Shown here: positions 1-38,087 of the stretch, piece by piece
Layout of the letters: each line of letters opens with the position of its first letter
Numbering within the stretch: position 1 is the stretch's first letter
Notes under the pieces: generated by a model
The model's database searches: none
The model's input: only the letters and a program-made list of their open reading frames with translations
Told to the model about the DNA's origin: nothing
Assembly (NCBI RefSeq): GCF_019649055.1
Contig: NW_026570385.1
Location: 62,001-126,000 of the forward strand
DNA length: 64,000 nucleotides
Direction of reading: 5' to 3'
Origin: Paramacrobiotus metropolitanus
Lineage: Eukaryota; Tardigrada; Eutardigrada; Parachela; Macrobiotidae
Translations under genes and position numbers: made by a program

Positions 1-3000
1 TCGCATCGCGCCCGAGTTGTTTGATGTTCCGTTTTCACGCCTCTGTGGAGTAATAGAAAGCATTTTTGAAGAACTGCTTAACAGAATTTTGGTGGATAAA
101 ATTCAGCCTTGGTATATGCTACGCGTGCAATTGTATAGCGATCATCTTCGCAAAAAAATTCCAATTTGGACGCCGTTAATGCGGCGGGACGAACTTACTG
201 TGGACCGTATCATGGCGCGCGTTGAACGGGTGATGCAAAATTCAACAAGCTTTCGCTTGGATGAAAGCTTCAGGATTGAAGTCCAGTACACAGAAACGCC
301 GGATGGGGGAGGTAATGACAATCTAGTGATTTCTGAAAGCGTTAAAAGGCTATTGAAGAACAAGATGTCTATCGTTCGTATAAAGAACGACGATAATTTA
401 TGTTTACCACGGTCCCTAGTAACGGCTAAAGCCTTAGCAGATGACGATCTGCAGCTATATTCAACGCTACGTGACACCAGGGCACATAAGCACCCAGAAA
501 AGCAGCATAAGGATCAGCAGACATTATTGGCGAAACAGCTGGTAATAGCTGCAGGCCTGACGGAGCGGCGCTACAGCCTGGACGACGTAGAGACATTTCA
601 GAAGTTACTAAGCGATTATCAAATCATAATTGTTGGACTGGAACAGCTTAACAGCATTATCTTTGCTGGCAAATTCAGGGAAAAACGCTTAATGCTATTG
701 TATTACGCCAACCGTTTTGACGTTTTAACATCTCTTCAAGGGTGGTACGAAAAAAGCAAATGGTGTTTTCATTGTGATCATGGGTACTCTCACGAAGGTG
801 ATCATCGCTGTAAATATACCTGCAAGCTTTGCTTGCGCAAAAGGTGTGAGATCGAAGCCAACTTTGCGCGATACTGTGCGGGATGCAATCAAACGGGCTT
901 TTGAAACAACGAGTGTTTTAACCACCACCTTGCAACGACAGCGAAAAACGCAAACCATAACAAAAAGAAAAGCATTTGCGAAAAATTCAAGGTGTGCATA
1001 GATTGCTCGGCATTCATAAAGACGAACGTGAAACGCGGATACTGGCCAGGCCATGTATGCGGTTTGATTTATTGTTCGGTTTGCCTGTGTTATGTATTAC
1101 CGGAGCACCATGACTGCTATATTAAACCAGAGAAACTTGACGACAAAGTATTAGCCAAGCACAAATCTGCCAGTTTCATGTACTTTGATTTCGAGACGTA
1201 CCCCAACGGTAATGGAAAGCACGTCCCAAATTTTTGTGTAATAGAAGTGCAGGAAGATGGAAAGCCCATTGAGACCCGCCAATTTCCCGAGGACATCAGC
1301 AACATTGGCAAAGACATTGCGAGCGATGTCTGTGAATTTATTTTCCAAGAAAAGCATGCTGGATTTTTTTGTCTGGCACATAACTTTAGAGGGTAAGAAA
1401 TTTTTGTTCTTCTTCTGTTTCAAACAACATGAAATGCGTTGAAAGTATACAGCTTACGGATAAAGTGGTGGGCTTTCTAGGTTCGATGGTTATTTTATTT
1501 TGAAATGGCTGCTTCAGAAAGGTCAAGCGCCTGACGTTATCATGAAAGGTTCCCAAATCACGCACCTGCGCGATCGGGGGTTTGGCATTAACTTTCGGGA
1601 TACGCTCAATTATGTTCCTTTGTCATTGGACAACTGGGCGAAATCATTCGCCGTTGAGGAAACTAAAGGTAAATTTTCCCATGTCCTGAACCGACCACAA
1701 TTTTGGAACACAGTTATTGACTATCCGGATATTGAAAAGTTCAACTACCGATTTATGAGCGATAAAGAAAAGCATGCTTTTATGGAGTTTTATAATGAAG
1801 ACAAAGCTTTAAAAAAAGGATTGTTTGACGTCAACAAGGAACTGGCTGCCTATTGCCACCAAGACGTGACCACGCTACGTTGTTGTGCAATACAGTTGCG
1901 CGAACTTTTTTTCAAAATTACGGATGGACTGTGTATTTTTCAATCAGGTTTAACCCTTCCAAGTGTTTGTCATTATTTTTGGAGGTCCAGGCTGCTAAAG
2001 CCTTTGGAAGTTGAGGTTATTCATATGCCCAGTAACAGAATATCCTCCAATAAGGCCAATTCATGGTTACAATGTATAAGCCAGAGCCAAGGCCTTGAAC
2101 TTGAGCGAGAATTCAAAATTGGTGCATTATTCATTGATGGGTACCATCTGGAAAGTCGAACTGCATATGAATTTTATGGGTGCGTGCACCATGGCCATCC
2201 AATATGCACGAATCCAAGTACACGCCACCCGCATCAGGACGCCACAATGGGTGAGTTGTACGAGCGAACCGTACGGCGCGAAGAAATGTTGAAGAAGCTT
2301 AAAATCAATATTGTGAGCGTTTGGGAATGTGAATATGACAGTCGCATTAAAAACGACGCTAATTTTGCTACTGCTATAAAAAACATACGGATTGTTGAAC
2401 CGCTTGACCCGAGAAAAGCATTGTTCGGAGGACGAGTTAATGCCCTAGTGTTGGACTATAAGGTCAAGCCTGGAGAGAAGATAATGTACTTGGATGTTGT
2501 ATCCGAATATCCATATGTCAATAAAAACAAGCGCTATCCGGTTGGCAAGCATAAAAGAATTACTAATAATTTTAAAACCTTGGATAACTATTTTGGAATT
2601 ATGCATTGCAAAATATTACCGCCTCGCAACCTGATGATACCGATATTACCGGCGCATTTCGATAAACTGATTTTCACGTTATGCCGCACTTGCGCTGAAG
2701 AAAAGAATCAGCAAGTTTGCACGCACGAGGATTCGGAGCAAAGAGCTCTGACGGGGACTTGGTGCACACTAGAACTACAAGAAGCCGTGAAAAATGGTTA
2801 TGAACTAATGGAAATTCACGAAGTATGGCACTATCCCGACAGCAGAGAGCGCTTTTTTGCTGATTATATTGATTTGTTCTTGGCGCTGAAAGTGCGAACT
2901 TCTGGCTGGCCGGCTGATATTAAAACTCCAGAGCAGCAAGATGCGTTTCTGGACCACTTTTTCCAAACGGAAGGCATCCGGTTGGACGGTTCCAAAATAA

Positions 3001-4028
3001 GCTGGAACCCTGGACTGCGGCAGCTCGCTAAGTTGTGCCTGAATAGGTTAGTGATTAATTTATTTTGTTTGTTTGGTGTCGGTAATATACTAAGAGTAGT
3101 TGTAGTAGTAGTAGTAGTAATTTATGCTATGGTGTTTACAGCTTTTGGGGCCGGCTGGGAATGAGCAATAACCTTCTCAGCACAGTTTTCGTGAACACTG
3201 TGAAGGATTTTCTGCACTATTCAACGTCTTCAGAATTCGAAATCCATGATTATGACGTATTTTCGGATGACGTTGTACAAATAATGTACACGAGGAAGGA
3301 TGCTATGGTTCCGACTAACGCGAAAACGAACGTGGTTCTAGCAGCGTAAGTGATAATAGTTTCAATTTTAGTGCTTCATTTAAATCAGGTAAATTAGACT
3401 TGTACTTATATTCTGCTGTCAGGTTTACAACGGCACACGCAAGATTACATTTATTGAAATTCACGCAAAGAGCGGGCGAGCGATTACTATATTTTGATAC
3501 GGTAAGAGCTGAAGCATTAGCGTAAAGCATATTAAACTAGAAGAAACGAGAAAAAAAAACATGGTTTTTAAATCGTAGGACAGCATTATCTTTGTTCCGC
3601 GTCCAGGTGACGAGACGTTTGAAACCGGGTCCACGCTGGGGATGTTAAGTAATGAGCTGGCCGAGGACGACTTCATTACGCGCTTCTGTAGTACTGGTCC
3701 AAAATCTTACAGCTACGTTACGGCATCTGGGCAGGAGGTCTGTAAAATCAAAGGATTTGAAATTAATAAACTTACAGGAACGGTGTTGAATTTTGATTCG
3801 ATGTTGAAAATCGCAACCCAACCTCTCCAAGATGAGACCGCCTCCGATAGCGCTCATGGTAACGTTCAGCCCGAGTCCCTTTCCGTCACATATGGTAGTA
3901 CTATTCGCCGGAAGAAACGGACATATGAAATCCAAGATGTGCCAATGACAAAGCGGTTCAGAAAGACGTACGACAAACGACGCATTTTAGATGACTTTAG
4001 TACTGTGCCATACGGTTACGTACCATAG
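1..4028 (+). pseudogene. polB: Protein-primed family B DNA polymerase (Polinton pPolB), 5' end missing, one in-frame stop
   Basis: This is the element's replicative polymerase. The frame is open at the left edge. Exons are <1-1392, 1481-3046, 3142-3345, 3423-3501 and 3579-4028, all joined by GT-AG introns that restore conserved motifs; the summed length is about 1,229 codons, usual for the family. Visible motifs are a Cys/His-rich zinc-binding stretch around 770-1120, exonuclease motif YFDFETYP (about 1180), HNFRG/FDGYF created by the first splice, palm motif A DVVSEYP (about 2495), NSFWG created by the splice at 3046/3142, and the catalytic YFDTDS created by the splice at 3501/3579. The third intron boundary restores the residues between these last two. 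A TGA at 902-904 interrupts the frame inside the zinc-finger stretch; the same frame continues with conserved-looking Cys and His on the other side. The second intron contains a TAG microsatellite. The 3' end overlaps a minus-strand gene by about 40 nt. Confidence 0.93.
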
Positions 4029-4378: not shown

Positions 4379-5557
4379 ATGTCTGGATGTGAACCCGAAA
4401 ATGTTCGTTTATCATCAACATCGACATCGCCACCACCATCGCCCGGAACAATGGATGCCATTCAGCACATTATCTGGCAAGGTGACTGGCAAGGTGGATT
4501 GCACGATAGGTTAAAAGGTTGCCTCGTGGGGAGTGTTGTTGCCAGCAGCTTTGGTCGTCTGTTCAATACACCCTTCTACAGAAGCCATTTACCAACCTTG
4601 AGAGAAGTTCATGAGCGGTGTGCTGATGTGGCCAAGGATCCTTGTTATGTGCGTTGTGGGTTTAGTGGAACAGTTGCTCTGGTGGTTCTCGAAGTAACTG
4701 TAGGTTGCTATACAGTCGAGCGTGACTATATAGCCGATGGACTGGGTAAAGCGTTAGGATCATCCAACTACTTTGGGGGTAGTAAGCACATGGAGCGTTT
4801 ATTGAAAGAGTTTCATCGGCGATGGAATGCTACAAGCAGCGAGAGCAACTTTGCTCTTCGACGAGATGACGAAGCTTACGTTTGTGGGCCTGCAAGAAGT
4901 GCGCACGGTGGGCAGGGCTCTCACGGGTATCACGGAGCAGTGATGGCTGCAGCGGTGGCTTTGTACTACTGCCGCGAACCTAGTTGCTTCCTCCGGAGAG
5001 AAGTCGAGAAGTGTGTAGCCATCACACATACGCATCGTTTGGAGATTGATGGAGCTGTGCTGTTTGCCTTTGGTTTACAGGAAGCGTGTGATAGCGCCCG
5101 CACAGCTTCAGTGACGACCTTTTTGAAACGGCTAGAGGATTATGCTTCAACTCTTGAACCACCATTTGGAGAAAACATGATAGCTGCTAATTCGTTATAC
5201 GTAAACCATAGCGTACTGCGTTCGCCGGCAGACATTATCCGACTGTATCCGAATGTTAACTCGCGCGCAGCACAGGACTTTGTTCCGCTGGCTATGGTCA
5301 TGGCATTCGTGGGCGGAAACCTACAGTGGTGGTATGGATATAACATCATGTCACCTTGGAAGCGAATGGTCCAGAGCTGCATTGCCCTTGGAGGTGATAC
5401 GGATGGTCGCACGTTCATGGCAGGCGCATTACATGGGGCATTCTATGGACTTTCGTCTGACCAACGTGAGTTTGAGGCGATGCCCGAGATAACGGAAGCA
5501 AACAATGCTTGTACTTTAGCTGATGCATTGTATAAATGGTGTTCACCCGATGACTAA
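4379..5557 (+). CDS. ADP-ribosylglycohydrolase (DraG/ARH) family protein, probably inactive or diverged
   Basis: The 392-residue product matches the all-helical ADP-ribosylglycohydrolase fold over most of its length. Family landmarks are the N-terminal DRLKGCLVGSVVASSFGRLF (about residue 40), a Gly-rich stretch near residues 175-190, an HTHRLE segment near residue 220, and GGDTDGRTFMAGALHG near residue 345, which is the C-terminal metal-binding signature. ARH enzymes hold two metal ions with two Asp-containing motifs. Here the C-terminal Asp pair (GGDTD) is present, but the early motif that is normally Thr-Asp-Asp-Thr reads FSGTVAL and the N-terminal Gly-Asp is Ala-Ser. Known enzymes remove ADP-ribose from Arg or Ser; this one may only bind ADP-ribose. 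A second ATG at 4451 is a possible alternative start. It is an accessory gene between polymerase and capsid blocks. Confidence 0.85.
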   Translation: MSGCEPENVRLSSTSTSPPPSPGTMDAIQHIIWQGDWQGGLHDRLKGCLVGSVVASSFGRLFNTPFYRSHLPTLREVHERCADVAKDPCYVRCGFSGTVALVVLEVTVGCYTVERDYIADGLGKALGSSNYFGGSKHMERLLKEFHRRWNATSSESNFALRRDDEAYVCGPARSAHGGQGSHGYHGAVMAAAVALYYCREPSCFLRREVEKCVAITHTHRLEIDGAVLFAFGLQEACDSARTASVTTFLKRLEDYASTLEPPFGENMIAANSLYVNHSVLRSPADIIRLYPNVNSRAAQDFVPLAMVMAFVGGNLQWWYGYNIMSPWKRMVQSCIALGGDTDGRTFMAGALHGAFYGLSSDQREFEAMPEITEANNACTLADALYKWCSPDD

Positions 5558-5612: not shown

Positions 5613-5770
5613 GATTAGGTCGGCTCGTGTTTCAAATGTTAGTGCATACAGTTTGCGTATTCCTGCCTTCACTTTGATTTAGTTGTCCATTATTCTGTTT
5701 GCTTGCTTTGAGTTTAAAGCGTTATCGTACTGTTACCGTTATTTGGGAGTATTTTCGCATTTTCACCGCA

Positions 5771-7131
5771 ATGGCTGCAACGCGAAGCGTAAATAGTGTA
5801 TCAGGTAATAACAATGACCTTTTGGCTGCCTTGTCGTCATCACCATCGTTGTCGACTATTCCGGCATCACTTCAGCCTGTAAGGGCATTAGCTATTACTG
5901 GTACTAAGAAACGTAAGGTCACCGCGGACTCGCTTAAGCCCAAAACCGATGCAGTTAGCTTAGCACGGCGTGGGTTTACCCAGGGGCAGGTTGCATTTCA
6001 GTACGAAGGCGGGCCTGTAATTAAATTTGGAGGAGAAAAATTCATTGCAATTTACTTGATGAACAACCGTTTGCGATACATTATTGGGGAGTTTGATAAA
6101 AATCAGGAGGGTCAGTGGATTCCAGGTTTAGCGTCCAAGCATGTCGAGTTAGATGCGAAGCAGTTTGCCAGACTCATGGGTTTACAACTGTGTGGACAAC
6201 TGGAAAGATTGATCAACTATGACGAAGGCTCTACACCCATTACGGCAATGCATGACCTGGGCGGAGGTTACTTCTTCAACTGGGGATGGTAAGAAAGCCC
6301 TTTATATAACAGCCTTGTGCTTTTGTTTCTATGGCACATTATTATTATATTTCTGCGGTTGCTTCTCCTCAGGCTTGACGAAGTACCCATTGCCAACATT
6401 CGGGTTTACCTTGAAGCAAACTGCTTGAAAGAACCGGGAACAAAGGTGGTCATCGGCTCACCCAGTGAGAAACGACTTGCGATGAAGTGAGTGTTGTGTT
6501 CTAGTGATAGCAACATAATTAATATTAAATTTACTTATTTTTTTGGTTGTTTCATAACCGTTTAGCTTATTGATATTATTATTACGGCTGTTGTTGTTGT
6601 TGCAATTGTAGTGAAAAGAACTGGACGGCGTTCTGTGAACTTTTGGACAACGGAACCATCCTTAAGCATGCGTATGAGGTGCTGAAAGGACGATCCGGGT
6701 ACCCTACCATGCAAGCCTGCCAAGCCGACTACCAGGATATTTTTGAGAAGCTACCGTGGCCTATGATGGAGCGCTTTTGCAAACGCCTGACGCAAGAATG
6801 CAAGCTTTGCCACCTTATGGAGGATACCTTTGCTGATCCGCTGCAGCCTGGAGCTCATGATGGCCATACTGCATGCCGCTACTCGGATCGTATACAACTA
6901 ACGGACCGTATGCGGAGTTATGTCTGTAAGGATGTGGAAAAGACTCTGCTGGGGCTGTTTCTCAAGCAACTGCCGTACCGCTATGCTGACGAAGCAGCGC
7001 ACTCGCATCATAATGCGGAACGCAACTTGCTGGAGGCATACCACTTCAAGCCGGACGAATTTCTGGTAATGCACGGAGATCGACTGTGTGCTGAAACGTT
7101 TCAAGGAGCAGTTCAAACTGAACTAGTATGA
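5771..7131 (+). CDS. Protein with PC4-like ssDNA-binding domain, three exons
   Basis: Exons 5771-6288, 6373-6486 and 6612-7131 join with GT-AG introns and give 383 residues. An Ala/Ser/Thr-rich head with a basic TKKRK patch (possible nuclear signal) is followed at about residues 70-135 by a strand-rich domain. It reads GPVIKFGGEKFIAIYLMNNR and then the pattern IGEF, GQWIPGL and LDAKQFARLM, which is the layout of the transcription coactivator PC4 (p15) single-stranded DNA-binding fold. The last 170 residues, encoded by exon 3, are Cys/His-rich (CKLCHLME, AAHSHHNAER) and unrecognised. By context it may protect single-stranded intermediates during protein-primed replication or act in transcription; that role is inference. 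The start was chosen as the first ATG after the last in-frame stop that is preceded by no better candidate. Confidence 0.65.
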
Positions 7132-7390: not shown

Positions 7391-7945
7391 TTAGTAGAAT
7401 GCTTCAAAATTATAAACACGTGTTTTTGCATTGAAAAAGTCATTAATAAAGTTACGAACCATCAAGTCGTTTTGAAATTGATTATCAATTCGATATAGGT
7501 TATGAATGATGTAGGAATAGGAAAAGCGACATACTGATCGCATTACTATAAAAAACATGCAGAGTCGAGCGCAGGTAGTGGACAATGGCTGTTGTAAAAC
7601 AGCTCGCTGTTCGTATAGGGGCAACGGTGGTGATGACGCAGGCTGGCCGATGAGTTGCGTTTTCAGAAAATTTTCAAGTGACTGACTATAATAGGCCACG
7701 GGTTTGCCGTAGGAATCGAAAACTTCAATAAATGAGGGGCACTTAACGTAGACGGCAATCCAATGTGTTCCGGGTTCGCTGGCTGGATCGGTGTTTACAA
7801 CAAACGCAGCAGGTAGGTTGGCCTCTGTAAGATGCTGCTGTTGTAGCTCATCTAGGGCGTAGACACCGCGAAACACCGACCTCAGCATGTGCGAAGCGGG
7901 GTTGTACTGTGACCACATGATATTCCGAATTTCCTGTTCGTTCAT
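7391..7945 (-). CDS. Adenain-like (C5/Ulp1-fold) cysteine protease
   Basis: The product of about 184 residues is the Polinton maturation protease. Catalytic-site patterns are in the expected order: His in EPGTHWIAVYV (about residue 65), Asp in EVFDSYGKP (about residue 80), Gln in VLQQPLS, and Cys in STTCARLCMFF (about residue 125). The start ATG at 7943-7945 was preferred to an upstream frame that overlaps the capsid gene. It follows the major capsid gene by 20 nt, the usual partner whose precursors it would cut during virion maturation. The reading frame is intact. Confidence 0.9.
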   Translation of the reverse strand: MNEQEIRNIMWSQYNPASHMLRSVFRGVYALDELQQQHLTEANLPAAFVVNTDPASEPGTHWIAVYVKCPSFIEVFDSYGKPVAYYSQSLENFLKTQLIGQPASSPPLPLYEQRAVLQQPLSTTCARLCMFFIVMRSVCRFSYSYIIHNLYRIDNQFQNDLMVRNFINDFFNAKTRVYNFEAFY

Positions 7946-7965
7946 TATGACGATTTGTTGTTTAA

Positions 7966-9276
7966 TTACGACGCAAAGTCGCAAATACCCTGGCGTAAAT
8001 TGGTGAATTCAATTAAATGGTCGCACGTTATCCAAGCCAGCATTTGATAGGCATTAGTTAGTGGTGTGTCAAAAGTTACTTCCAGGCCCACTGTCCCTGA
8101 TCGAATTAGTGTCATGGGTCCTAAGCCTGTAGCCGTTGGCGTCAGGTCAAAAGCGAACACTGTGTATCCTTTTGCGTATGTATGACGGTCCAGAATATGG
8201 GCTCCAGCTGGATGGTTTTTTTGATTCAAAACATCCAAGAAGCCGTCATAACACTTTAAATAGCGGTTGTTTGGAAAGTCACACATGTAGGGTACCGTTG
8301 GGTATTGTTTCCCATCCACATTAATACAGATTTGACGAACGCGACAATGATCAAATACAAACGGATTGAGGCTTGCTGTGCCATGGAAGCGGTCCGATTG
8401 CACAAAAGCAATAAATACCACCTTAGGTAGTTGGCCGTACTTGAGGTCGGAAAATGCTATAGTTTGGGTGCCAGCAGGAATAGCACGCGCTTTTAATTCT
8501 GCGCGTTCAATGTGGTATTTGGCTGTTGTTGTTTGTAACTTTTGTGTAACAGCGTTCATGAAATCCGGTGATGAGATATAGCGTCGTACGGTTATGCGTG
8601 GATGTTTCATAAATGCCTTGTATTCTGTTGCAGCCGTCGCACCGGTATTCCATGATCGTAAATAAAATTCTGAATTGTTAAAGTATAGGCTAACGTGCAC
8701 GGGGACGCCTGTGAGCAAAGGTTTTGATTGTACGCATAAGTCCGTGAAAATCTTTCCCGATAACTGAACGCTAGCACTTAAAGCAAATAGCTCCTTCCGC
8801 TTTGCTTCACCAGTGTTCTCTGTGGCATGTTCCATCTTGCCTGGTGTGTCGAAATAAAATCCGCCGCTCGTTAGCTGGCTTTTCATGGCATCTTCAGTAC
8901 AACTTGTTAGAACCTCCATTATAGCGCGATAGGGATAATAAGGTGAACAGTCTGAGATCACCTTGTTCGCCACAGTAAAATGAATTTGTTTGAACAAACT
9001 ATGCACAATATAATTAACAGGCGCTATGTTATCATTGATCTCTAGGTTCACCCATGCATTTGTGGCGTTCTTTTTCTTTATACTTAATTCACACTCAAAA
9101 CACGTATCCGTGAGCGAGAGCAGACCGTTGGATGACGGCGGGATAAAGAAAGACAGGTTACCGCTTAATGGTGAGTCTTCCGGAGGCGCCGACTCTGGTC
9201 CATACTCTTGTGTCTCATGGCTGAAACGTTCCGTTAACGATGCCGGTACGGAGAACAGGTTCATGTCACTAGACAT
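7966..9276 (-). CDS. Major capsid protein (double jelly roll, hexon-like)
   Basis: The 436-residue intact frame matches the Polinton/adintovirus hexon-like capsid protein. Typical features are an early FFIPPSSNGLLSLTD, then VNYIVHSLFKQIHFTVANK and YYPYRAIMEVL in the first jelly roll, and a strand-rich second half ending in an LTNAYQMLAWITCDHLIEF segment. It is predicted to form the pseudo-hexagonal trimers of the icosahedral shell. It is the middle of the minus-strand morphogenesis block, 20 nt before the protease and 52 nt after the basic core-like gene. No frame break is visible. Confidence 0.92.
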   Translation of the reverse strand: MSSDMNLFSVPASLTERFSHETQEYGPESAPPEDSPLSGNLSFFIPPSSNGLLSLTDTCFECELSIKKKNATNAWVNLEINDNIAPVNYIVHSLFKQIHFTVANKVISDCSPYYPYRAIMEVLTSCTEDAMKSQLTSGGFYFDTPGKMEHATENTGEAKRKELFALSASVQLSGKIFTDLCVQSKPLLTGVPVHVSLYFNNSEFYLRSWNTGATAATEYKAFMKHPRITVRRYISSPDFMNAVTQKLQTTTAKYHIERAELKARAIPAGTQTIAFSDLKYGQLPKVVFIAFVQSDRFHGTASLNPFVFDHCRVRQICINVDGKQYPTVPYMCDFPNNRYLKCYDGFLDVLNQKNHPAGAHILDRHTYAKGYTVFAFDLTPTATGLGPMTLIRSGTVGLEVTFDTPLTNAYQMLAWITCDHLIEFTNLRQGICDFAS

Positions 9277-9859: not shown

Positions 9860-10795
9860 TCAACGGACAGGCCTAAAATGCAGTTTCACTAATGATTTTC
9901 CCGCCTGAAATTTAAAATCTTCGTCTTCGGAGCTCAAGTTGATTTCGATGGTTTCGATGAAATTACGTACTAGTGGTACATAATGTGGTTCCACAATGTC
10001 CGAATAAACATACATTGTTGTGTTGTTATGTTGCATGTTGGCAGATTTATTGGACGCTACTACCATTGGTACGTCCAACGTATCAGCATTCAGCGGTTGT
10101 TTTCTTTTGAATAGGTACCATAGATAAGGTCGAGGAGTAATAAAAGTACTAGGAATACTTCCGAATGGTTCAGCTGGCGTCCCATCTTCTTCTATCATTT
10201 CTTCAATATAGTAACGAAATTTTGAAGGAACACCGTCAAGATCTTTAAAGTCTAAAGGGTCTTTATCGTGTTGAGTCTGCACAAAACCAAGTAACCCTTT
10301 CAATCGGTCATCGTTTTCGGAAAAACGCAGCTCACCACGCAAGCTATTAAACGTTACTTCCGTCTTGAGCGTTACAAGATTATAACGTATATTGAACACT
10401 TTTGTGGTACTGTTATTTGTGCGAAGGCGTGATGGTGTAACATTGCGACCTTTTAAGTCTACCGAGTTTGGCGACTGTCGCACAATTACGTCAATTAGCG
10501 CCTTCAATGTATATAGACCTGGTGGAATAATGATCGTATTCTGAACCGATGACAGGGAGGTGTCACTGATGACATCGTACTCGTTAACAGTTAGTTCTTG
10601 CTCTTTTGGTATGTTGTAGATTGAGTTTGTATATTGCAATTCCACCAAACCTACTTCCCACCGGCCCGATAAAGATATTGGAATTTTTAGTTTTGTCTTC
10701 CACATTTGCGCACTGTTCTTGGGATACATGTCCATTGACGCATCGCTTGGTAGTGTCACGTAAAACGGTGTACCATTTCCAACAACACTAGCCAT
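9860..10795 (-). CDS. Penton-like minor capsid protein (single jelly roll)
   Basis: The 311-residue frame starts with a strand-rich module. It reads NGTPFYVTLPSDAS, then YPKNSAQMWKTKL and LSGRWEVGLVELQYTNS, a recognised signature of Polinton vertex proteins. The C-terminal part has TTMYVYSDIVEPHYVPLVR, also typical. It is predicted to fill the fivefold vertices. Its ATG overlaps the end of the integrase frame by 8 nt, which fits tight co-transcription of the block. The frame is intact. Confidence 0.88.
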   Translation of the reverse strand: MASVVGNGTPFYVTLPSDASMDMYPKNSAQMWKTKLKIPISLSGRWEVGLVELQYTNSIYNIPKEQELTVNEYDVISDTSLSSVQNTIIIPPGLYTLKALIDVIVRQSPNSVDLKGRNVTPSRLRTNNSTTKVFNIRYNLVTLKTEVTFNSLRGELRFSENDDRLKGLLGFVQTQHDKDPLDFKDLDGVPSKFRYYIEEMIEEDGTPAEPFGSIPSTFITPRPYLWYLFKRKQPLNADTLDVPMVVASNKSANMQHNNTTMYVYSDIVEPHYVPLVRNFIETIEINLSSEDEDFKFQAGKSLVKLHFRPVR

Positions 10796-11819
10796 TTCCG
10801 TCAGCTACTTTTGATAGCTCTTGCTCATAAAACTTTCCAATTACACTGGGTCCACCGTCGGCAGGTTCCACTTCATACACAGGTACGCGATGCTTGGTTA
10901 CCTTATTCACTCGATATAGCTTTTTTGTGTACTTCACGTCAGCGCCTTTCTTAAAAAGCTGCTTTTGCAAATGAAGACGCACTGTGTCTCCGTCCTTAAA
11001 TAGCGGTACCTTGGCTTTGCTTTTGTTATTATTGTTGGACTGTAATCGCTGAAACACTAAACGCGAATTTTCTCGATTGAAGTCATTCGGCGCCAATCCA
11101 TGCGCCGTGTGAGGTGTGCTGTTGTAGCTGTGAATAATGTCCTGTAACTTGTCATAATATTTTACACTCCCATCGCGAGCGGTTATCAGTCGCATGAGAC
11201 GCTCTCGTAACGTTCGGATGAATCGCTCTGCCATGTTAGCTTTAATTTCACAGTTCTCTTCAGAAAACATAACGACGCCGTTCTGTTTCATGTAGTCTTG
11301 AACTGGTTTGTTGTAAAACTCACGCCCTGTGAACGAATAATACAGTTAGTTTGCAACGCTTACGACGATTTCATCCTGTGTGTGTTTGTGTGTGTGTGTG
11401 TGTAGTACCTCTATCCACTTGTAAATATATAGGTGGTCCATACAAACGAGAAAGGTTTTCTCCAAGGCAGGAAGAACGTATTCACTGCTTTTTTTTGTCA
11501 GCATTTCGCATGCTACTTTCTTGGAAAAACTCTCCACACCAACCAGCAGAAATTTCTTATGTTTATACTGTTTTGCGTAACGGGACACGTCCATCAGGTC
11601 AGCCATGTACTGTTCACCGAACTGTATTGAAACTACCGGATTTCTGCGGAATTTCTGCCGAGACGGCTTATGTAAATTGTAGGCGTCAATTCCTTGCAGA
11701 AGCTTTAGGGCTTTGTCATGCTGATTAAGTTCGCTTGACACGGTTTGATGCTTCCGGAATCGTTCCACTACCCCCAGGCTTGCCACTTGCGCCGCACTCA
11801 CGTACTCCGCTTCTCCCAT
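10788..11819 (-). pseudogene. int: Retroviral-type (rve) integrase, one intron, one frameshift
   Basis: The gene inserts the element. The upstream part (11,819 down) carries the Polinton N-terminal pattern AYNLHKPSRQKFRRN and the first catalytic Asp in YMADLMDVSRY. A GT-AG intron at 11,327-11,408, containing a CA repeat, precedes an exon starting GREFYNKP. The second catalytic Asp lies just before the donor (QVDRG) and the catalytic Glu is in ANMAERFIRTLRERL. The C-terminal part contains a basic, strand-rich domain ending KFYEQELSKV. The frame that supplies the second Asp is one base off the upstream frame, so an indel lies at about 11,450-11,460. The full DDE triad is present in the DNA but not in one open frame. 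The start of the first exon is uncertain. Confidence 0.88.
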
Positions 11820-12720: not shown

Positions 12721-13056
12721 TTAGCGATTTGCTGTCACTGCGCTTATAACTGCTGATGCTAGTAATGGTAATAGAGCGGGTAAGAATCCTCCTCGTTGTA
12801 ATAGTATACGTTTTTTCCTTTGAAGTGATACACTTGGAGATGCTAGAAGCTTTATGGGAGTCTTGCACCTTTTACACGCTGTCAGCTGATGAGGCTTTAA
12901 GGGGACTCGTCCTTTAATAAGGTTCAAGGCAAGCTCTTGAATACCCCTTATATGGTGTTTATCGCAACACTGTTTCAACAGTGCTCTTCGTTGCTTAGGC
13001 TTTGCCCGGTTAAGGGTAAGCAAAAACGGAGCAATCTCCTTCGCTTTACTTGCCAT
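12721..13056 (-). CDS. Small conserved Polinton protein with C-terminal hydrophobic GGFLPALLP segment
   Basis: The 111-residue frame has a basic helical N-terminal half (NRAKPKQRRALLKQC), a Cys pair (CKRC) and a hydrophobic tail LLQRGGFLPALLPLLASAV. This layout is shared by a small protein common in animal Polintons and adintoviruses, often considered a virion component. Function is not established. Its ATG overlaps the end of the ATPase frame by 11 nt. The frame is intact. Confidence 0.65.
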   Translation of the reverse strand: MASKAKEIAPFLLTLNRAKPKQRRALLKQCCDKHHIRGIQELALNLIKGRVPLKPHQLTACKRCKTPIKLLASPSVSLQRKKRILLQRGGFLPALLPLLASAVISAVTANR

Positions 13057-13750
13057 TTTTTGGGCTCAGTGATGGCAGATGATCAGTATAAATCCTCATT
13101 GTCTCTTTAGGAAACAAATGCGATCGCAGCCTTAAATAAGATGGACAAGCTGGGGTAAGGTCAATTAATAGCGGTTGATAGTTTTCTGACGTGCAAGCCG
13201 CGTACGCTTGTGCAGGGCACTTTAGTTTTGTTTGACGTTGTAAGATATCGATCTGGCCGAGGTCCCGAGCATTCTTAAACAGCACCATATACTGACAATT
13301 TAGTGTTTTATCACGCATCGCTTTTCCTTGTTTTTACAGGTTTTGGGTAATATAAATAACGCTCAGGTTTTTATGGTGAATTCCTGGCGTGAACAGATTA
13401 CTGGCCTGCTCATTTTTTGCCATCTCGTGTGCCAAATCATCCACAATCAGTAAATTTGTCACCTCCTTATCGAAAAAATCCTCGTCCGAAAAAAGGTCAC
13501 TCAGTCCTTTCACAAACTCTGTTTCTGGACACTGAACTTTCAAAGCATCGTATCCATTCTGCCACTGATTGTATGCATATACCACTCTTCTCGGAGTCGA
13601 AGTCATCATTTCTTTTCGTTGCTCGATAAAGCGGAAGACAAAAGACGATTTTCCAACCATTGTAGGACCGCAAATCATCATTCCAAAAGGAGTTACGAGT
13701 TTTGGCTGACTTTCCAGCTCCACGAAATTGTTTTGAATTACTGCTGTCAT
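13046..13750 (-). pseudogene. FtsK/HerA-type DNA-packaging ATPase, interrupted by one in-frame stop
   Basis: The product would drive genome packaging into the capsid. Walker A is GPTMVGKSSFVFRF (about residue 28) and Walker B is NLLIVDDLAHEM (about residue 115). A sensor-like VIYITQN follows and the conserved tail (AMRDKTLNCQYMVLFKNARD) continues in the same frame. A TAA at 13,334-13,336 separates the two parts; no plausible splice pair removes it. The start is taken at the ATG 13,748-13,750 (MTAVIQNN). That codon shares two bases with the ATG of the divergent TBP-like gene. Confidence 0.9.
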
Positions 13751-14268
13751 GGCGGCATCAATAAAAAATATAGTCGCAGTTGGTAAACTGAATTGTGGTT
13801 TGATCTTCAAGATATTGCAGACCTTCTCCAGATTCCGTACGATCCCAACATTTTTTCAGGACTTACTATTCGCCGAATGCGTCCATACAAAAGTCATTGT
13901 CAACTATACAGCAATGGTCGGATTACAGTAAACGGAGCTGTTACCGAGCGTAATGCTGAAGAGCTTCTCGAACTCTATTGTAACTATATGCACATGTTAG
14001 GCTATACCGATGCGTACGTTACGGACTTCGAAATAGTTAACGTAGTAGCGTCTTATGACATGTATAGACCATGAAACTAGATGACGTGTTTAAAAAGCTG
14101 CACTGCTACCGCCCATGTTATGAACCTGAACTGTTTCCTGGTCTAAGCGTCCATCTACCCGAAGCAACTTGTGTAATTTTTACCTCTGGTAAAGTTAATA
14201 TTTTGGGTGCAAAATCGGAATTGGCTGTGCGTACTACGGCAGCCGAACTTCGCTTGCTACTGTTTTAA
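13749..14268 (+). CDS. TATA-binding-protein-like (TBP) gene, two repeats, apparently in three frames
   Basis: Both halves of the TBP saddle are recognisable. The first has IKNIVAVGKLNC, then FDLQDIADL, IPYDPNIFSGL, QLYSNGRITVNGA and DFEIVNVVASYDM. The second has YEPELFPGL, VIFTSGKVNILGAK and a final helix. The four aromatic positions that wedge into the DNA minor groove are Phe (NIF), Tyr (QLY), Phe (ELF) and Phe (VIF), so all are aromatic. Core length (about 170 residues) matches the TBP core with no N-terminal extension. The frame shifts at about 13,795 and again at 14,070, where the first half ends in a TGA overlapping an ATG (ATGA) that can start the second half, exactly at the repeat boundary. 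AATAAA lies at 14,357-14,362. It is divergent from the ATPase, and an in-frame stop at 13,734 fixes the ATG at 13,749. TBP homologues are known in some large DNA viruses; I know of none as a standard Polinton gene. Confidence 0.85.
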
Positions 14269-14413: not shown

Positions 14414-14986
14414 TCAGTTTTCTTGCGGCGGGCGATCTGGTCTGCAGGACGTTCCGCTCTGCCAGTCATGCTCAGCTTGTGGGTCGTCATGCGGCTCCCA
14501 GTTTTCTAACTCTAGTCCACAATGAATACACTTCACTAGGTCACGCAATCCCGTGTAAAAGAAGCCGGCTCTCGCAAAACGCGCCGCTGACGGTGTACGC
14601 AGTGTCCAGTTCCTGTGTTGAAACGAATGCAGACGGTATACGAACCGTCTGAATTCACGTTGCAGCCGATAGCCTGCTGCAGCACGCCCAGGAGTCGCTG
14701 TGTCCGCTCTTCTGGTAGGCGCCCCCGGGGGATCCAACCAAACCAAAGTGTATCCACTCAAAGCGCCCAATGGTAGACGATATGGCCTATCCGCCGCAGG
14801 CGCTGAAGTCGACGTAGTTGCTGGTTCTGGCCGTAGCGGTGGTTGTGGCGGAGTTGGCGTGGCTGGTGACGCTCCGGTTCCAGCGCTTGGTACTGAAACT
14901 GAGTCCGGTACTTGCGGTGGAACAGATCTCGTTGAGCTTACTGGAGAATCTTGCAATTCGCCATGTTCAACCAGAAGAGTCTCCAC
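14414..14986 (-). CDS. Single-BIR protein (IAP-like, no RING)
   Basis: The 190-residue product has a long Pro/Ser/Thr-rich N-terminal half with no recognised fold. One C-terminal BIR domain (residues about 118-185) follows. It shows RLHSF, then ARFARAGFFYTGLRDLVKC, and the zinc ligands CIHC, H in AEHDW and C in GTSC with 16 residues between the second Cys and His. BIR domains bind caspases or other partners to block cell death. No RING follows, so it would act by binding. The stop is close to the end of the element's TBP gene. A TATA box sits at 15,053-15,060. Confidence 0.88.
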   Translation of the reverse strand: METLLVEHGELQDSPVSSTRSVPPQVPDSVSVPSAGTGASPATPTPPQPPLRPEPATTSTSAPAADRPYRLPLGALSGYTLVWLDPPGAPTRRADTATPGRAAAGYRLQREFRRFVYRLHSFQHRNWTLRTPSAARFARAGFFYTGLRDLVKCIHCGLELENWEPHDDPQAEHDWQSGTSCRPDRPPQEN

Positions 14987-18075: not shown

Positions 18076-19299
18076 AACAAAAATACACTGGCAGGATTTT
18101 TTTTATGACGGAACGACACATTGGGCAACCATCACAGTCCCTCACACAACAGTTGCAAACAACAAAATGACCACATGGATATAGAATCTGTGTGATCACA
18201 TTTGTGTAACAAATCTTACACAGCTTTTCGTCTTTCAATTCGGTCAAATGATCTGCTGGAGAACGTAAGAAGATTCGTCGCCAGTGCTCTCTTACTGCCC
18301 GTAGATGTTCCTCGCTATTACCCTTCATTCTTGCATTTCTGTTAATACCACAAAACTGATTAACCGTTCAGCAATGCAGGGCTACTATTTTGGAGACAAT
18401 AACCTTTCACGCCTTTCGCTATCCCGGCAACCCTGTTCAAGCCAAGGAACGTGCCAGGGAAACCCCAGCTCTGACTGGGCCATGATTCTCGCACTCGGAC
18501 GCCGGCGTAAGGCTTCCATCACGTGCTCCCAACTACAGAACTGTAAAGCTTGTAGAATTTTTTCTTCTTCGGCCACGTTTTCTGGCCACAACAGCGCGTC
18601 TTCATCTACAATATCGAAAGCTTAGTTGTAATACGGTATTTACTCTTTACTGCCAATCTAACCTTCTTTAGATGCATTTCTATATTTGTTCTGTTTCTTC
18701 TGCCGAATCATATTTATAAAGCTTTCCCCCTTCTGCTCCACCAAATATGGACACTGCGGTCTTAAGGCAGCATGAATCTCCCAAGGGTCTTCATTTTCTC
18801 TCCAGCAATCTCTTCCCATGCCACAGTAAAAACAGCGTGTCAGTATACAATAGTTTATAAAGTAAAAACCCGCTGCAGCCATTTCTTGTGGATGTTGATG
18901 TGGACTGCTTGGCCAACGAGCAAAAGTAGCGAAGCGGCTTTCATAGGATTGCATTTTTGGGCAGTAAACATTGGTAATGATGTCCTTGCTGTACTCCTCG
19001 AATCCAGCAAATTCCTCCTCACTAGCCTCTCCATCATAAACGTCTGCGTCCGCTTCGGTGTCGCTACAGCTGGTAACTTCACTTTCTGATCTCGACATTT
19101 TACAATCCGGAAAATAAATTTTATGTGTTGCAGCCGGTGTACCCTTTATGTTCCGTGCACTTATAGTTCCAAGACCATAACTACACGTAATTAAGTCCTC
19201 ATAACTAGTACATTCAAAGCCAGCCTTAGCCAGTTCCAAAGGGGTCCAAGATGAATACCCCCATTCAAGGAACGATAATATACGATTGTACAAGTCCAT
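18074..19299 (-). CDS. iap: Inhibitor-of-apoptosis protein (BIR-BIR-RING), three exons
   Basis: Exons run 19,299-18,663, 18,620-18,404 and 18,329-18,074, joined by GT-AG introns of 42 and 74 nt, giving about 370 residues. The first BIR-like region (RILSFLEWGY, then LAKAGFECTSYEDLITC) lacks the second Cys and later ligands, so it is degenerate. An acidic linker follows. The second BIR is complete: RFATFARW, AAAGFYF, CFYC, His in EIHAA and C in RPQC with 16 and 6 residue spacing. The last exon encodes a C-terminal RING: CKIC, PCGHFVVCNCC and CPMC. IAPs bind caspases with BIR and ubiquitinate with RING. It is the last gene of the element and all exons are open. Confidence 0.9.
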
Positions 19300-19473: not shown

Positions 19474-19509
19474 CGGGACGTCATCCCGGGACGCTCTTAT
19501 CAGCGTCCC
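19474..19509. repeat. Two adjoining GC-rich hairpins near the presumed Polinton right end
   Basis: CGGGA/TCCCG (19,474-19,478 and 19,484-19,488) is followed directly by a perfect 8 bp stem GGGACGCT/AGCGTCCC (19,488-19,495 and 19,502-19,509). Both share the GGGACG start. They could mark the element terminus or a recombination structure. Confidence 0.5.
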
Positions 19510-20084
19510 ACATCTAAATGCCGGTCGAGCCTAGTGTGTTACTACTGGTACTCACATTTGCCTCTACTCCAGAGATTGGGCGAGTACGAGCGCACGCGTT
19601 TGTGAGTTTTGCTATTTGTCATCTTGTATCAAGCCTTTGCGGCATTGCTCATGATGTGAAAAAAAATCTTAACAATTATGTCCCAGTTTGTTGTATTTGA
19701 AGACAAAAGCCAGTAGGAAATTGGCCTTTCAGCAGCAGTCTTTTGCGGTATGTCCAAAGATATCATGGATAAAAGGTACCTGATTTTATTGGCTGTTGAT
19801 CTGATCCTTATTGAAGTAGTTCGAAGATTTACTTTGACCATCAAAAGCATTAAACTTTTTTATGACGCCATGCAATTCTGCACTCATTACGAGGTACCAG
19901 TCTGTGTTTCACTTTTTTGAAAACCTTTTCCGCTTCAAAGATATATTGTGGTTGGGCTGCTGCAAAAGTTTAAAAATAGAAAATGGGACGATTTAGTTGT
20001 AAATTGTAACTAGCAAGCATGACGAAGCTGTTTATACTAACTATTCACACTCATATCCGTACTCATTTCCAGCAATAGTAGAAA
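19510..20084. other. No gene seen
   Basis: Only short frames without recognisable domains; nothing supported. Confidence 0.5.
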
Positions 20085-34648: not shown

Positions 34649-37161
34649 ATGGAACGAACACCAGTAAATAAGGCGAAACAGTTCGCGAGTAATCTTTTAC
34701 GAACGGCTGATCGAATTATTCGAAATCAGCCGAAAGAAACAGAAACAAATGATAACGGAGCCCGCAATGTTACCCGCGGGAAAGCGAAACAAATAGCAGC
34801 CGGTGGTGATGAAGTAGTACATCAGGTACTACAAACAAATAAAAGAAAGCCGAAAAGAGCACCATTAGCCGATCTACCAGTACCTGAGTCGGTAGAACAG
34901 CCGGCCTCGCCAATGGTCCCTAAGGATCTGAACGAGGCCATGATCGAAGTAGAGACACAACCGAGTGTCGAACGAGTCGATAGCGTAACAGCGTCGACAA
35001 CGTCGACCGAATCGTCGGTATCGCTGATTAATATTAGCGAAACAGCGTCCAAGGAGTCGATCGACTCTTCGGACGAAGACGATGACGAGCCGACAACGGT
35101 AGTACCGTTAATGCCGAAGGCGCACTCCAGCCCGAGCCTTATCGATAAGGTTTTGGGAAAGGACCTGACGCCGGTCCTAAAAATTCCGATGATTCAGCAG
35201 TTACAGCCGACATTAAAAAGGGGGCCTCGGTTCAGCCTGTTAATGCAAGCTACCGATACAGTGGTAGAATTGCAGAACCAAGTATCGGACTTTAGAGTCC
35301 GATATGAAAAAGCCGAACAAGATATCGCAAAACGCAATAAGACGATTTGCGATACGAAAGCCGAACTGGATGATCTAAAAGAGCAAATACGAACGGCTAA
35401 AGGCTCCCATAATAAGGCAAGCGAAGCCGCTGTCGGGCTTGCTGCTCAGGTTAGACACCGTGACAATAGGATTGATAAACTAAAAGCCGAATTACAAAAG
35501 GCACAAGCCGAACTAAAATCCGAAAAGAATTCGTCGACCAACTTCCGTAATCAGTATCTCGAAGCTATACAAGAGAATGGGAGTTGAGTACGGAGTCGAA
35601 TGACCGACTCGCTTCGATCTCTATGCTGCAAGAGTCGAGTGAGAGATACCGGTCGGAATTTAACATATTAGCCGAAAAGTACAACCGCCTGTTGGCAACG
35701 CACCAGCAGATGATAGCTGCCGCCGAAAACCAAATCGATTATGAAGAACGGCCGCCTACGCGAATGCGTGCTGGCCAGCCCGAAACCATGCACTCCCGCA
35801 TGGAGCCGGCCCCAGTAGAACATATCAGCCGACAGCAGGTTTCCCAAGTAGAGGTAGTCGCAAATTGCGATGCCCTGCGGGAAGAACTGCGTAAACTAAG
35901 TAAACGAACGAGCCGAAGCAATAGTCCGTTAAGGAAAGCCGACCTAGCCGACGCCATACGACAGCCGGTTCCCAGGCCGTCGTATAATGGCAGTAAAGAA
36001 GACATTGATAGTTTTCTCATCAAGTTTGAGCAAGCCGCAAAAGAAAATCGATGGGTTAGCGATGAGCGTAAGATAGCCGAACTGGCCTACTACCTGAAGG
36101 ATGAGGCGGTCATCTGGTACAACGGCCTGCTCACGTCCCCAAATAAGCCGACTACGTACCGGGAGTGGCGTAACCAATTGGTTGCGCGGTTCGGAGATAC
36201 CAGACGCTCTGTAAATGCGTTGTCCGAACTCACGAACCGAACGTACCGACCAGGTCAGGAATCGCTTGAGAGTTTCTTTCAAGCGATGATGACGTTGAGA
36301 GATAAGGCCGGGTAAGCCGGTACGCCGGATCAATTCGTGACCTTTCTAATGAAGGGTATAAAGTCGCATGCAACTCTGCACGATAAGATCGAGGGCATGG
36401 ATCCTCGTACGCCGGAAGAATTCTTAGAGAAGATTCGCTAGTTGACGGCGAGCAATCCCGAAAAGTATGTGATTCCAGTCGGCAGTAAACGTAAGAATCA
36501 AGATGCCGACTCTGTGACCGTTCGTACGGTACAGACCCAGCCGAAGCCGGTGAGCTACGCGGCAGCAGCTGCTAGCCCGCCGCGCCCCAATAATAATGGG
36601 GAAAATCGCAGACCATACCGACCAGCTAATAATGGTAATGGTAACGGTAATGGTAATATTAGGCCAGCAGGCAATGCCAATAATAATAACGGCAATGTTA
36701 GGCCAGCCGGCAATAACAACAATAATCAACAGTCGAACCGTTCCCAGCTGTGGGCCGAGAACGCCGAACGTATTCCCGAGAATACTGACCGGACTCCACG
36801 GTTGGAGAAGCCGATGAGAAATGTTCAAGTAGTAGAGTACTGCCAGCAGTGCGATGTCTGCGGGCACTACTTTGAGGCATGTCAGTTTAAGGACGTGCCC
36901 CGAGCCGAAAATCCAATCTATTTGTCGTATCATGACCCGGTAACTGGAAATCGCCGGTACGCCCGAGATTTCCGGAGCCGAAGCCAAGCCGGTAGTGGAG
37001 CGGGTACGCCTAACAGCGGCCGCTCCCGAAACAATTCACAGTCGCGTGCCCAAGGCCAAGGCCGACCGATCGGTCCACGGCCGACGTCACGTTCACCGCC
37101 GCCGAATCAAAACGAATACGCCGCATCAGCAAGTAGCCAGGAAAACGACAACGGGGAGTAA
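34649..37161 (+). pseudogene. gag: Gag polyprotein with coiled coil, capsid domain and CCHC knuckle; disrupted
   Basis: The start is set at the ATG 34,649 (MERTPVNKAKQF). An acidic Ser-rich region is followed by a long Lys/Glu/Ala-rich coiled coil (about 35,230-35,720) that crosses a frameshift at about 35,580. The retrotransposon capsid domain lies at about 35,970-36,310 (SYNGSKEDIDSFLIKFEQAA, then EAVIWYNGL). In-frame stops TAA at 36,313-36,315 and TAG at 36,439-36,441 interrupt it; the same frame continues. The tail has an Asn/Gly-rich stretch and one zinc knuckle CQQCDVCGHYFEAC with CX2CX4HX4C spacing. Gag forms the particle and binds the RNA. Confidence 0.88.
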
Positions 37162-37181
37162 CTTCCGGCAGTACTCCCCGG

Positions 37182-38084
37182 TTGCCTGGTGAAATGCCGG
37201 ATACTACTGAGATAATAACTATTAGTGGTATCCGAATCACCGAACCGACCGACCTAAACGAGCCGATTATAAATGAAATCAATATCGATAAGTCTAACGC
37301 CGATTCAACTAAAGAGCCGAAGCGAGCACCACCGTTATTGGTGTGGGCTCGTATCCTAGGCACAACCGTAATGGTTATGATCGATACTGGAGCCGAGACT
37401 TCACCCATCTCGAATGAGTTCGTCGATGAGCTAAAACTAGAAAAACTACCGTTAGTTAAGCCGCTAAACATTAGAGGAATCGGTGGTATGTGTGGATTTC
37501 TAGTAACCCACTACTGCACGGTACCCGTAAAAGTATTTGGCGAACTAATCAGCCATTTTTTCTATATTAAGCCGACTGTCGACGACACTAAAGTGCTAGT
37601 AGGCCAGGACTTCTTGGCTGGTGCCAACTATGGTTTCCGCAATAACGAAGTACAATGGATCCGTAGGATCCACACTATTGTGGTCGAACCAGCAGTTGTT
37701 GAATCTATAAAGCCGAAGACTATTGAACAAATTGTTCCGATACCCGTGGCATCGGAACCAACTATTAATACTATTGATATTTCTAAGGAGCCGACCCCAA
37801 AAGCCGAAATTCTTCCGATACCCGTGGCAAAGGCCACGAGCAAGAGAATTAAGCTACCGCCGCCGAGAAAGTCGTTCGCTAAGTTATGGCAAGAATATCG
37901 AGTTTTTGTAACCGAAGTACAAGAACTGACGAAATTGTTCCATAAAACCCGACAAGATATCTTTGTCTTAGGAGACGACAGTACGCCGATTTCAGGCATT
38001 AGTCCTAAGGAAGCCGAGCAAATTGCAGATAATCTAGATTCTGCTTTTACAGCCGAGTATCTCTTGATGCTAGAGAAGCATTAG
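37182..38084 (+). pseudogene. pro: Aspartic protease (PR) region of pol
   Basis: The frame differs from gag, as expected for a frameshift-expressed pol. VMIDTGAETSPISNEF holds the catalytic Asp-Thr-Gly-Ala and VLVGQDFLAG is the downstream conserved block. A basic Pro-rich linker follows. A TAG at 38,082-38,084 ends it in frame with the next part. Confidence 0.85.
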
Positions 38085-38087
38085 AAG

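Follow-up and report, generated by a model that had tools for sequence, protein, structure and literature searches.

A gene in the first part of the window is a degraded copy of a gene that looks close to core in the Polinton-type elements of this genome and that encodes a complete two-repeat TATA-binding protein (TBP) core. The window is the whole 64-kb stretch of DNA that was analysed (contig C165:62001-126000), and the genome that was searched around it comprises 169.8 Mb on 533 contigs. We consider it probable that the element TBP works on TATA-like promoters of its own element, together with TFIIB and RNA polymerase II (Pol II) supplied by the host. Polintons are commonly positioned close to the origin of many eukaryotic DNA viruses, and are generally assumed to depend on the host for promoter recognition.

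The first 19.5 kb of the window is a Polinton-type element, because it carries a family-B DNA polymerase, an adenain-type protease, weak integrase pieces and a pX-like gene, and a homologous element contains a better integrase (an open homologue at L026:6162-7103, Pfam rve E 3.1e-11, over cut-off). The features of the element that matter here are the following.

1500..3164, forward strand: part of a family-B DNA polymerase (Pfam DNA_pol_B_2, PF03175, E 1.2e-36), which we take to be of the protein-primed type
5678..6289, forward strand: partial homologue of a PC4-domain protein found in the element at L026 (BLASTP 3e-9; positions 4-124 of 160 of the iterated HMM)
7391..7984, reverse strand: adenain-type cysteine protease (Pfam Peptidase_C5, PF00770, E 2.5e-5, over cut-off)
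7966..9276, reverse strand: major-capsid candidate, recurring beside ATPase and TBP
10788..11819, reverse strand: retroviral-type integrase in two pieces, one with a weak rve_3 match (E 0.042, under cut-off)
12721..13056, reverse strand: adenovirus-pX-like small protein gene (Pfam Adeno_PX E 1.7e-5, exactly at cut-off), downstream of TATTTAAGG
13046..13318, reverse strand: C-terminal piece of the ATPase, containing CPSYLRLRSH
13130..13138, reverse strand: TATTTAAGG, a TATA-like word within the C-terminal coding piece of the ATPase, 82 nt before the start codon of the next gene
13334..13750, reverse strand: packaging-type, A32-like ATPase with P-loop GPTMVGKS, open over 138 codons, head-to-head with TBP
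13749..13799, forward strand: TBP N-terminus, 17 codons, MAASIKNIVAVGKLNCG, frame 1 (family HMM E 0.02, weak)
13787..14071, forward strand: TBP repeat 1 with wedge residues F and Y, frame 3 (Pfam TBP E 4.4e-9; family HMM 1.7e-34)
14071..14268, forward strand: TBP repeat 2 with wedge residues F and F and the YEPELFPGL stirrup, frame 2 (Pfam TBP E 1.5e-10; family HMM 1.2e-20)
14414..14986, reverse strand: BIR-domain accessory gene adjoining TBP (Pfam BIR E 9.9e-17)
19495..19551, no strand assigned: 57-bp inverted repeat (89%), paired with a stretch about 1 kb to the left of the window and so spanning about 20.5 kb

The inverted repeat is possibly the remnant of a terminal inverted repeat; no target-site duplication was found at the ends of the element. 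The capsid label is our assumption from the size of the frame and the gene order, as the candidate had no Pfam match and, with a profile of five sequences, no PDB match of note. The ATPase matched Pfam Pox_A32 weakly (E 0.04 for the window copy and 0.024 in another scan, both under cut-off); the window copy has relatives elsewhere in the genome that are up to 98% identical and have longer frames. A PHROGs search with four proteins gave no match.

Several other genes were observed in the window. A second BIR gene (18658-19299, reverse strand) and a RING gene (18077-18328, reverse strand) lie at the right end of the element, and the genome as a whole is very rich in BIR domains, with at least 150 scored (150 of 491 candidates). 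The element also contains an ADP-ribosylglycohydrolase-like gene (4379-5557, forward strand, E 3.7e-17), and at L129:1067-2287 (reverse strand) this domain (E 5.1e-29) shares one frame with a BIR domain. Further along the window there is a Ty3/gypsy-type retroelement (35584-40717, forward strand), in which the matches to reverse transcriptase, RNase H and protease pass the cut-off and those to gag narrowly miss it, and a 539-aa frame (42973-44592, forward strand) whose match to linker histone narrowly passes the cut-off (E 1.3e-5).

The TBP-like gene starts with the ATG at 13749 and its stop codon ends at 14268, the last piece being read as 14071-14265 before the stop. The reading frame changes twice, as the three-frame translation places the N-terminus, repeat 1 and repeat 2 in frames 1, 3 and 2, and this copy is therefore broken, with open copies found elsewhere in the genome. 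The original prediction, that both TBP repeats lie at 13749-14268 with all four wedge aromatics kept and no N-terminal extension, between the packaging ATPase and accessory genes, was borne out. When the pieces of the three-frame translation were searched separately, repeat 1 and repeat 2 both gave a clear Pfam TBP match (36.5 and 41.2 bits, cut-off 22.9 bits), the aromatics F, Y, F and F were read in the open near-copy L009, the gene has no N-terminal extension, and it stands with the divergent ATPase on one side and BIR-domain genes after it. Because it is frameshifted, the window's own copy cannot act as a promoter-recognition factor, and what follows concerns the family to which it belongs.

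A scan of the genome with the Pfam TBP profile, in which 150 of 493 candidates were scored and all 150 were over cut-off, gave at least 122 TBP loci after merging, the host TBP included; this is a lower bound, since the window copy is not among the 150 scored. The corresponding searches scored 150 of 351 ATPase candidates and found 103 capsid-candidate matches, which merged into 93 loci. At least 94 of the 122 TBP loci lie within 15 kb of an ATPase and/or a capsid candidate, where about 5 would be expected under a crude random placement. Among the 122 listed loci, both neighbours were present within 15 kb at 48, the ATPase only at 27, the capsid candidate only at 19 and neither at 28. Seventeen of these 28 loci without a nearby scored hallmark were sampled, besides the host TBP, and 16 encode proteins that are 54-100% identical to TBPs from element loci. 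The exception, on contig C66, showed 21% identity. This highly divergent TBP-like protein (L042, C66:349000-349900) falls outside the Polinton clade on a very long branch, and may be a TBP-related factor of the host. Contig C4 carries the canonical host TBP, in which reading of the frames places an intron within the TBP core. A trichomonad host, which genome size and copy number might have suggested, was rejected in view of the BIR genes and the animal-like character of the canonical TBP.

Starting from the other hallmarks, at least 67 of the 93 capsid-candidate loci lie within 15 kb of a scored TBP, and all four loci sampled from the 73 ATPase loci that do not contain a scored TBP at this distance have a TBP-family frame (best E per locus 3e-30 to 7e-14). 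On these best-scored lists and small samples, TBP therefore seems to be almost a core gene in the Polintons of this genome. The gene was thus found beside the ATPase in related elements, and its placement recurs: for the 75 TBP loci that have a scored ATPase no more than 15 kb away, the arrangement with the neighbouring ATPase is divergent at 20; at 38 the two genes share a strand and are 7-8 kb apart, and at 10 they share a strand at a distance of about 1 kb or less. In the window the two genes are divergent and their start codons overlap in CATG. This head-to-head overlap was seen at seven of ten loci examined, representing four lineages (the window, L009, L011 and L012 together forming a single lineage, besides L013, L016 and L018); at L017 the two starts are a few bases apart, and at L019 and L045 there is no ATPase start at that place. 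Because the start codons overlap, there is no intergenic promoter between TBP and ATPase.

In several lineages a gene of about 145-167 aa, with a start like M..VLDADWF, stands immediately upstream of TBP and nearly overlaps it or does so in part; three of these proteins were tested and gave no Pfam match over cut-off. It was read at the following places.

L020:5016-5513, reverse strand: 145-167 aa gene upstream of TBP
L026:1078-1512, reverse strand: the same gene
L028:5437-5892, reverse strand: the same gene
L023:8276-8776, forward strand: the same gene

In one lineage the TBP is extended at its C-terminus by a long tail and reaches 355 aa (L024:4677-5741, forward strand). The TBP domain was found as two stretches in L024 and also in L129.

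When 5.8 billion proteins were searched with a profile, 1676 matched, and the best 120 of these were examined. The best 66, with the exception of P0062, resemble the element family (E at most 6e-40, mostly 40-54% identity to the first query), and from P0067 (1e-39) onward the matches among these 120 are ordinary TBPs. The relatives come from jgi, ena, ncbi and other sources and are known from protein sequence alone; we take them as mostly metagenomic, because their contigs are mostly short. Five scans of viral_contigs with element TBPs or the capsid candidate, using strict peptide patterns of limited sensitivity, confirmed no relative, and a scan with P0070 found none. A scan with a general TBP alignment gave 15 viral loci, which were used as references.

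A tree (IQ-TREE) was built from 63 rows, hand-chosen from the loci read, the 120 listed proteins, 80 further loci and the 15 viral loci; host_C66 and vir_L141 are long branches in it, the host TBP row is without its first part, and ASFV and Megavirus are not included. Twenty element TBPs and 16 database proteins, interleaved with one another, form one clade (support 99/100) on a stem of 1.12 changes per column. The host TBP lies outside this clade, beside two eukaryote-like viral TBPs (95/85), and eight of the 12 viral TBP rows form a group in another part of the tree (82/87). Among the IMG/VR TBPs, the pair that most resembles those of eukaryotes, L133 and L134, is placed outside the Polinton clade. 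The element TBP is thus quite different from the host TBP and forms a single clade across many divergent Polinton lineages of this genome. It is also under purifying selection, with dN/dS at 0.06-0.30 in all 14 pairs with measurable dS among 18 pairs of open copies (Nei-Gojobori), dS being saturated in the other four. The gene is present in related copies, it matches the TBP profile and it is not nearly identical to the host TBP; the element TBP is not a chance host insertion.

Structure prediction was carried out for P0008, a database member of the clade, rather than for the window copy. The AlphaFold2 model (pLDDT 97.3, pTM 0.86, from an alignment of 42 rows) has the pattern strand, helix, three strands, helix, twice, and predicts that a member of the family folds as the TBP saddle. 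Foldseek returned 44 PDB matches to this model at E 0.001 or below, and all 44 were TBPs or complexes containing TBP. The best was the human TBP core with DNA (1cdw_A, E 8.7e-17, TM 0.90, 30% identity).

Key residues were tabulated in 36 clade rows, in what we take to be yeast numbering and with the roles that we presume from TBP structures and mutants. Like cellular eukaryotic TBP, the TFIID subunit, the element TBPs have the two-repeat saddle, the wedge positions (F99 in 35 rows, with Y in one; F190 and F207 in all 36), the minor-groove Asn residues (N69 in 31, N159 in 35) and the TFIIB stirrup (E188 in 34, E186 in 19, L189 in 23). Unlike cellular TBP, they have Tyr as the second wedge residue (Y116 in 32 rows, with F in four) and both minor-groove threonines are replaced, Thr124 by Asn and Thr215 by Leu, each in 35 rows; S118 is replaced by Asn in 33. 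The basic face of helix 2 is not kept, the net charge averaging +0.4 (range -4 to +7) in the 36 rows and +2 in the host and yeast proteins. The open copies read have no introns and the N-terminal region is missing. We do not take the altered threonines as excluding membership of the TBP family, because the fold, the repeats and the wedges are those of a TBP and the cellular row P0067 is also altered at both positions (L and V).

Some elements encode a PC4-domain protein, as judged from profile matches. The L026 protein (L026:1855-2565, forward strand) contains a PC4 domain at residues 186-236 (PF02229, E 1.9e-8, over cut-off), and the Pfam PC4 profile gave ten matches in the genome: a strong one at C41, which is taken as the host gene, eight near listed TBP loci, which include further ones over cut-off, and one other. 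With an iterated L026 profile, homologues were found in eight of 45 stretches, all of them among the 25 long ones; for those in L022 and L023 the match to Pfam PC4 fell short of the cut-off (E 0.04 and 0.006). The homologue in the window matches only the first part of L026, with the Pfam-PC4 part mostly outside its frame, and itself matched nothing in Pfam or the PDB. On visual inspection, there seems to be a resemblance to PC4 in the first half of these proteins, too. PC4 binds single-stranded DNA. The element proteins share PF02229 with the PC4/p15 coactivator and differ from it in being very divergent, the best PDB match having E 0.52. For TFIIB, the genome search gave six matches at three loci (C28, C45 and C100) and none at the listed element loci.

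The TATA-like word TATTTAAGG lies within coding sequence for the C-terminus of the ATPase, 59 nt upstream of the following start codon in L013 and 82 nt in L011, the two lineages measured. In nine lineages the Tyr-Leu-Arg codons that contain it are TAT in 8/9, TTA in 9/9 and AGG in 7/9 (AGA and CGT once each), and in the genes of the elements these codons make up 0.53, 0.21 and 0.09 of the codons for their own amino acids. Across 62 conserved columns of the ATPase C-terminus, the most frequent codon has a mean share of 0.56, and this share is at most 0.56 in the other ten Leu columns and at most 0.44 in the other four Arg columns; some two-codon columns elsewhere are equally uniform (Tyr 9/9, Asp and Gln 8/9). 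The nine lineages are related to one another, L026 was added by a looser pattern, and lineage L021 is without the word. The window, L010, L011 and L012, as near-copies of L009, were left out of the codon test, and all four read TATTTAAGG; the C-terminal motif was not found at 12 other loci (L014-L018, L024, L025, L028 and L129-L132), which are hence outside the test. Because the three codons are more uniform than the average conserved column, we read this as probable selection on the DNA word itself.

Simple enrichment of TATAWA was rejected as proof of promoters, as 21 occurrences against about 15 in shuffled sequence in the region from -100 to -21 is only mildly raised. A k-mer screen upstream of element genes yielded TATTTAAG. 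Part of its signal is homologous coding sequence, and therefore the codon test was used together with a redundancy-cut, composition-matched test. The pattern TATWWAAG, which was picked after the k-mer results and so is not an independent test, came first of 60 composition-matched patterns in the region from -120 to -15 (7 of 111 genes, median 1, identity below 55%), with seven sense occurrences and one antisense. With the identity cut at 75% (155 genes) there were 12 sense and two antisense. At 40% (71 genes) the near-promoter excess is gone, with two sense and one antisense, and seven sense and no antisense occurrences are found from -240 to -120. The related word [TC]ATTTAAG is upstream of the ATPase in five of six aligned loci (L020, L021, L022, L026 and L027, and not in the L023 stretch), and in L013 it is inside the TBP coding sequence.

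It was originally predicted that the element could make its own promoter-recognition factor, and for the open copies this would fit with the selection on the gene, the TATA-like words and the PC4-domain gene. The element TBP would bind TATA-like words of the TATTTAAGG/TATAAAAG type in the promoters of its own element, bend the promoter DNA and recruit host TFIIB and host Pol II. Host TFIIB is proposed because stirrup residue Glu188 is kept and no TFIIB gene was found at the elements. The minor-groove floor with Asn at 124 and Leu at 215 could give the protein its own sequence preference, the altered helix-2 face could free it from part of the host control (TFIID, NC2, Mot1 and TFIIIB), and the PC4-domain protein of some elements may assist as a coactivator. 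The binding, the specificity, the use of TFIIB and the timing are what we infer from sequence, and against this reading, the TFIIB residues Glu186 and Leu189 are conserved in just 19 and 23 of the 36 rows, and host TBP could use the same TATA-like words. Going further, we would only tentatively suggest a private Pol II initiation system, by which the element would control its genes independently of host TFIID and in which the TBP with its altered DNA-reading surface is joined in some lineages by the PC4-domain coactivator and acts on a private TATA-type word, TATTTAAGG, that lies partly in coding sequence.

The same residues could also be explained by a decoy, in which the element TBP competes with or poisons host TBP or TFIID and stops host transcription during the active phase of the element, with no initiation on the element. 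A protein that keeps the wedge and has lost the basic surface of helix 2 could occupy promoters without normal regulation; however, the conservation of Glu188, the position of the TATA-like words in the elements themselves and the PC4-domain gene of some elements all argue against this, and we regard it as unlikely. The saddle might instead serve in integration or replication, either by bending DNA so as to direct integration towards promoters or by shaping the element ends or packaging, with the PC4-domain protein as a single-stranded-DNA binder. The head-to-head arrangement with a packaging-type ATPase points in this direction, as does the DNA binding of PC4 beside the elements' own family-B DNA polymerase. 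The residues that are kept, however, include the TBP-specific wedge and stirrup, beyond what bending alone would involve, and the words are upstream of genes, which makes such a role improbable.

That the element TBP drives element genes with another polymerase system, that of a co-infecting virus or Pol III, is improbable in our view. This reading is consistent with the lack of a TFIIB gene at the listed element loci and with the example of Megavirus, which, according to PMC11464507, encodes RNA polymerase subunits and a TFIIB beside its TBP, unlike the Polintons here; against it, the part of the ORFs that was scanned showed no gene for an RNA polymerase. The frameshifted state of the window copy would agree with chance capture of a host TBP that has no function in the element. 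For the family as a whole this is ruled out by the many lineages, the single clade apart from host TBP, the purifying selection and the recurring placement, and as an account of the gene it is very improbable indeed.

The elements share with Polintons/Mavericks and adintoviruses the family-B polymerase, the adenain-type protease, the integrase, an apparently A32-like ATPase and the pX-like gene, and differ from those reported in having TBP and PC4-domain genes. We found no report of TBP or PC4 in Polintons in the accessible, mainly open-access, literature on Polintons, Mavericks, adintoviruses and virophages, and none of TBP in Polintons in the available parts of PMC10675990, PMC10328495, PMC11244446, PMC11071296, PMC11071308 and PMC10120064. 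Virus-encoded TBPs of large DNA viruses are already known: ASFV pB263R and the Megavirus TBP have been proposed to serve viral transcription (PMC5825884 and PMC11464507, in the parts available), and a paper on mirusviruses also contains the term TBP (PMC10132985). The nearest case appears to be the sporadic TATA-binding proteins in elements of putative mirusvirus origin, as described in the available part of PMC10675990. As far as the literature searched goes, therefore, it is the presence of TBP in Polintons that is new.

To summarise, an element-borne TBP that is under selection and unlike that of the host suggests that these elements help to direct the transcription of their own genes. It also provides a naturally occurring TBP whose minor-groove surface has been rewired, and with it a candidate DNA word, for studying how TBP specificity evolves. 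The retention of TBP in many Polintons of one host suggests that an element of about 20 kb can carry part of the machinery that initiates transcription without also supplying its own polymerase.
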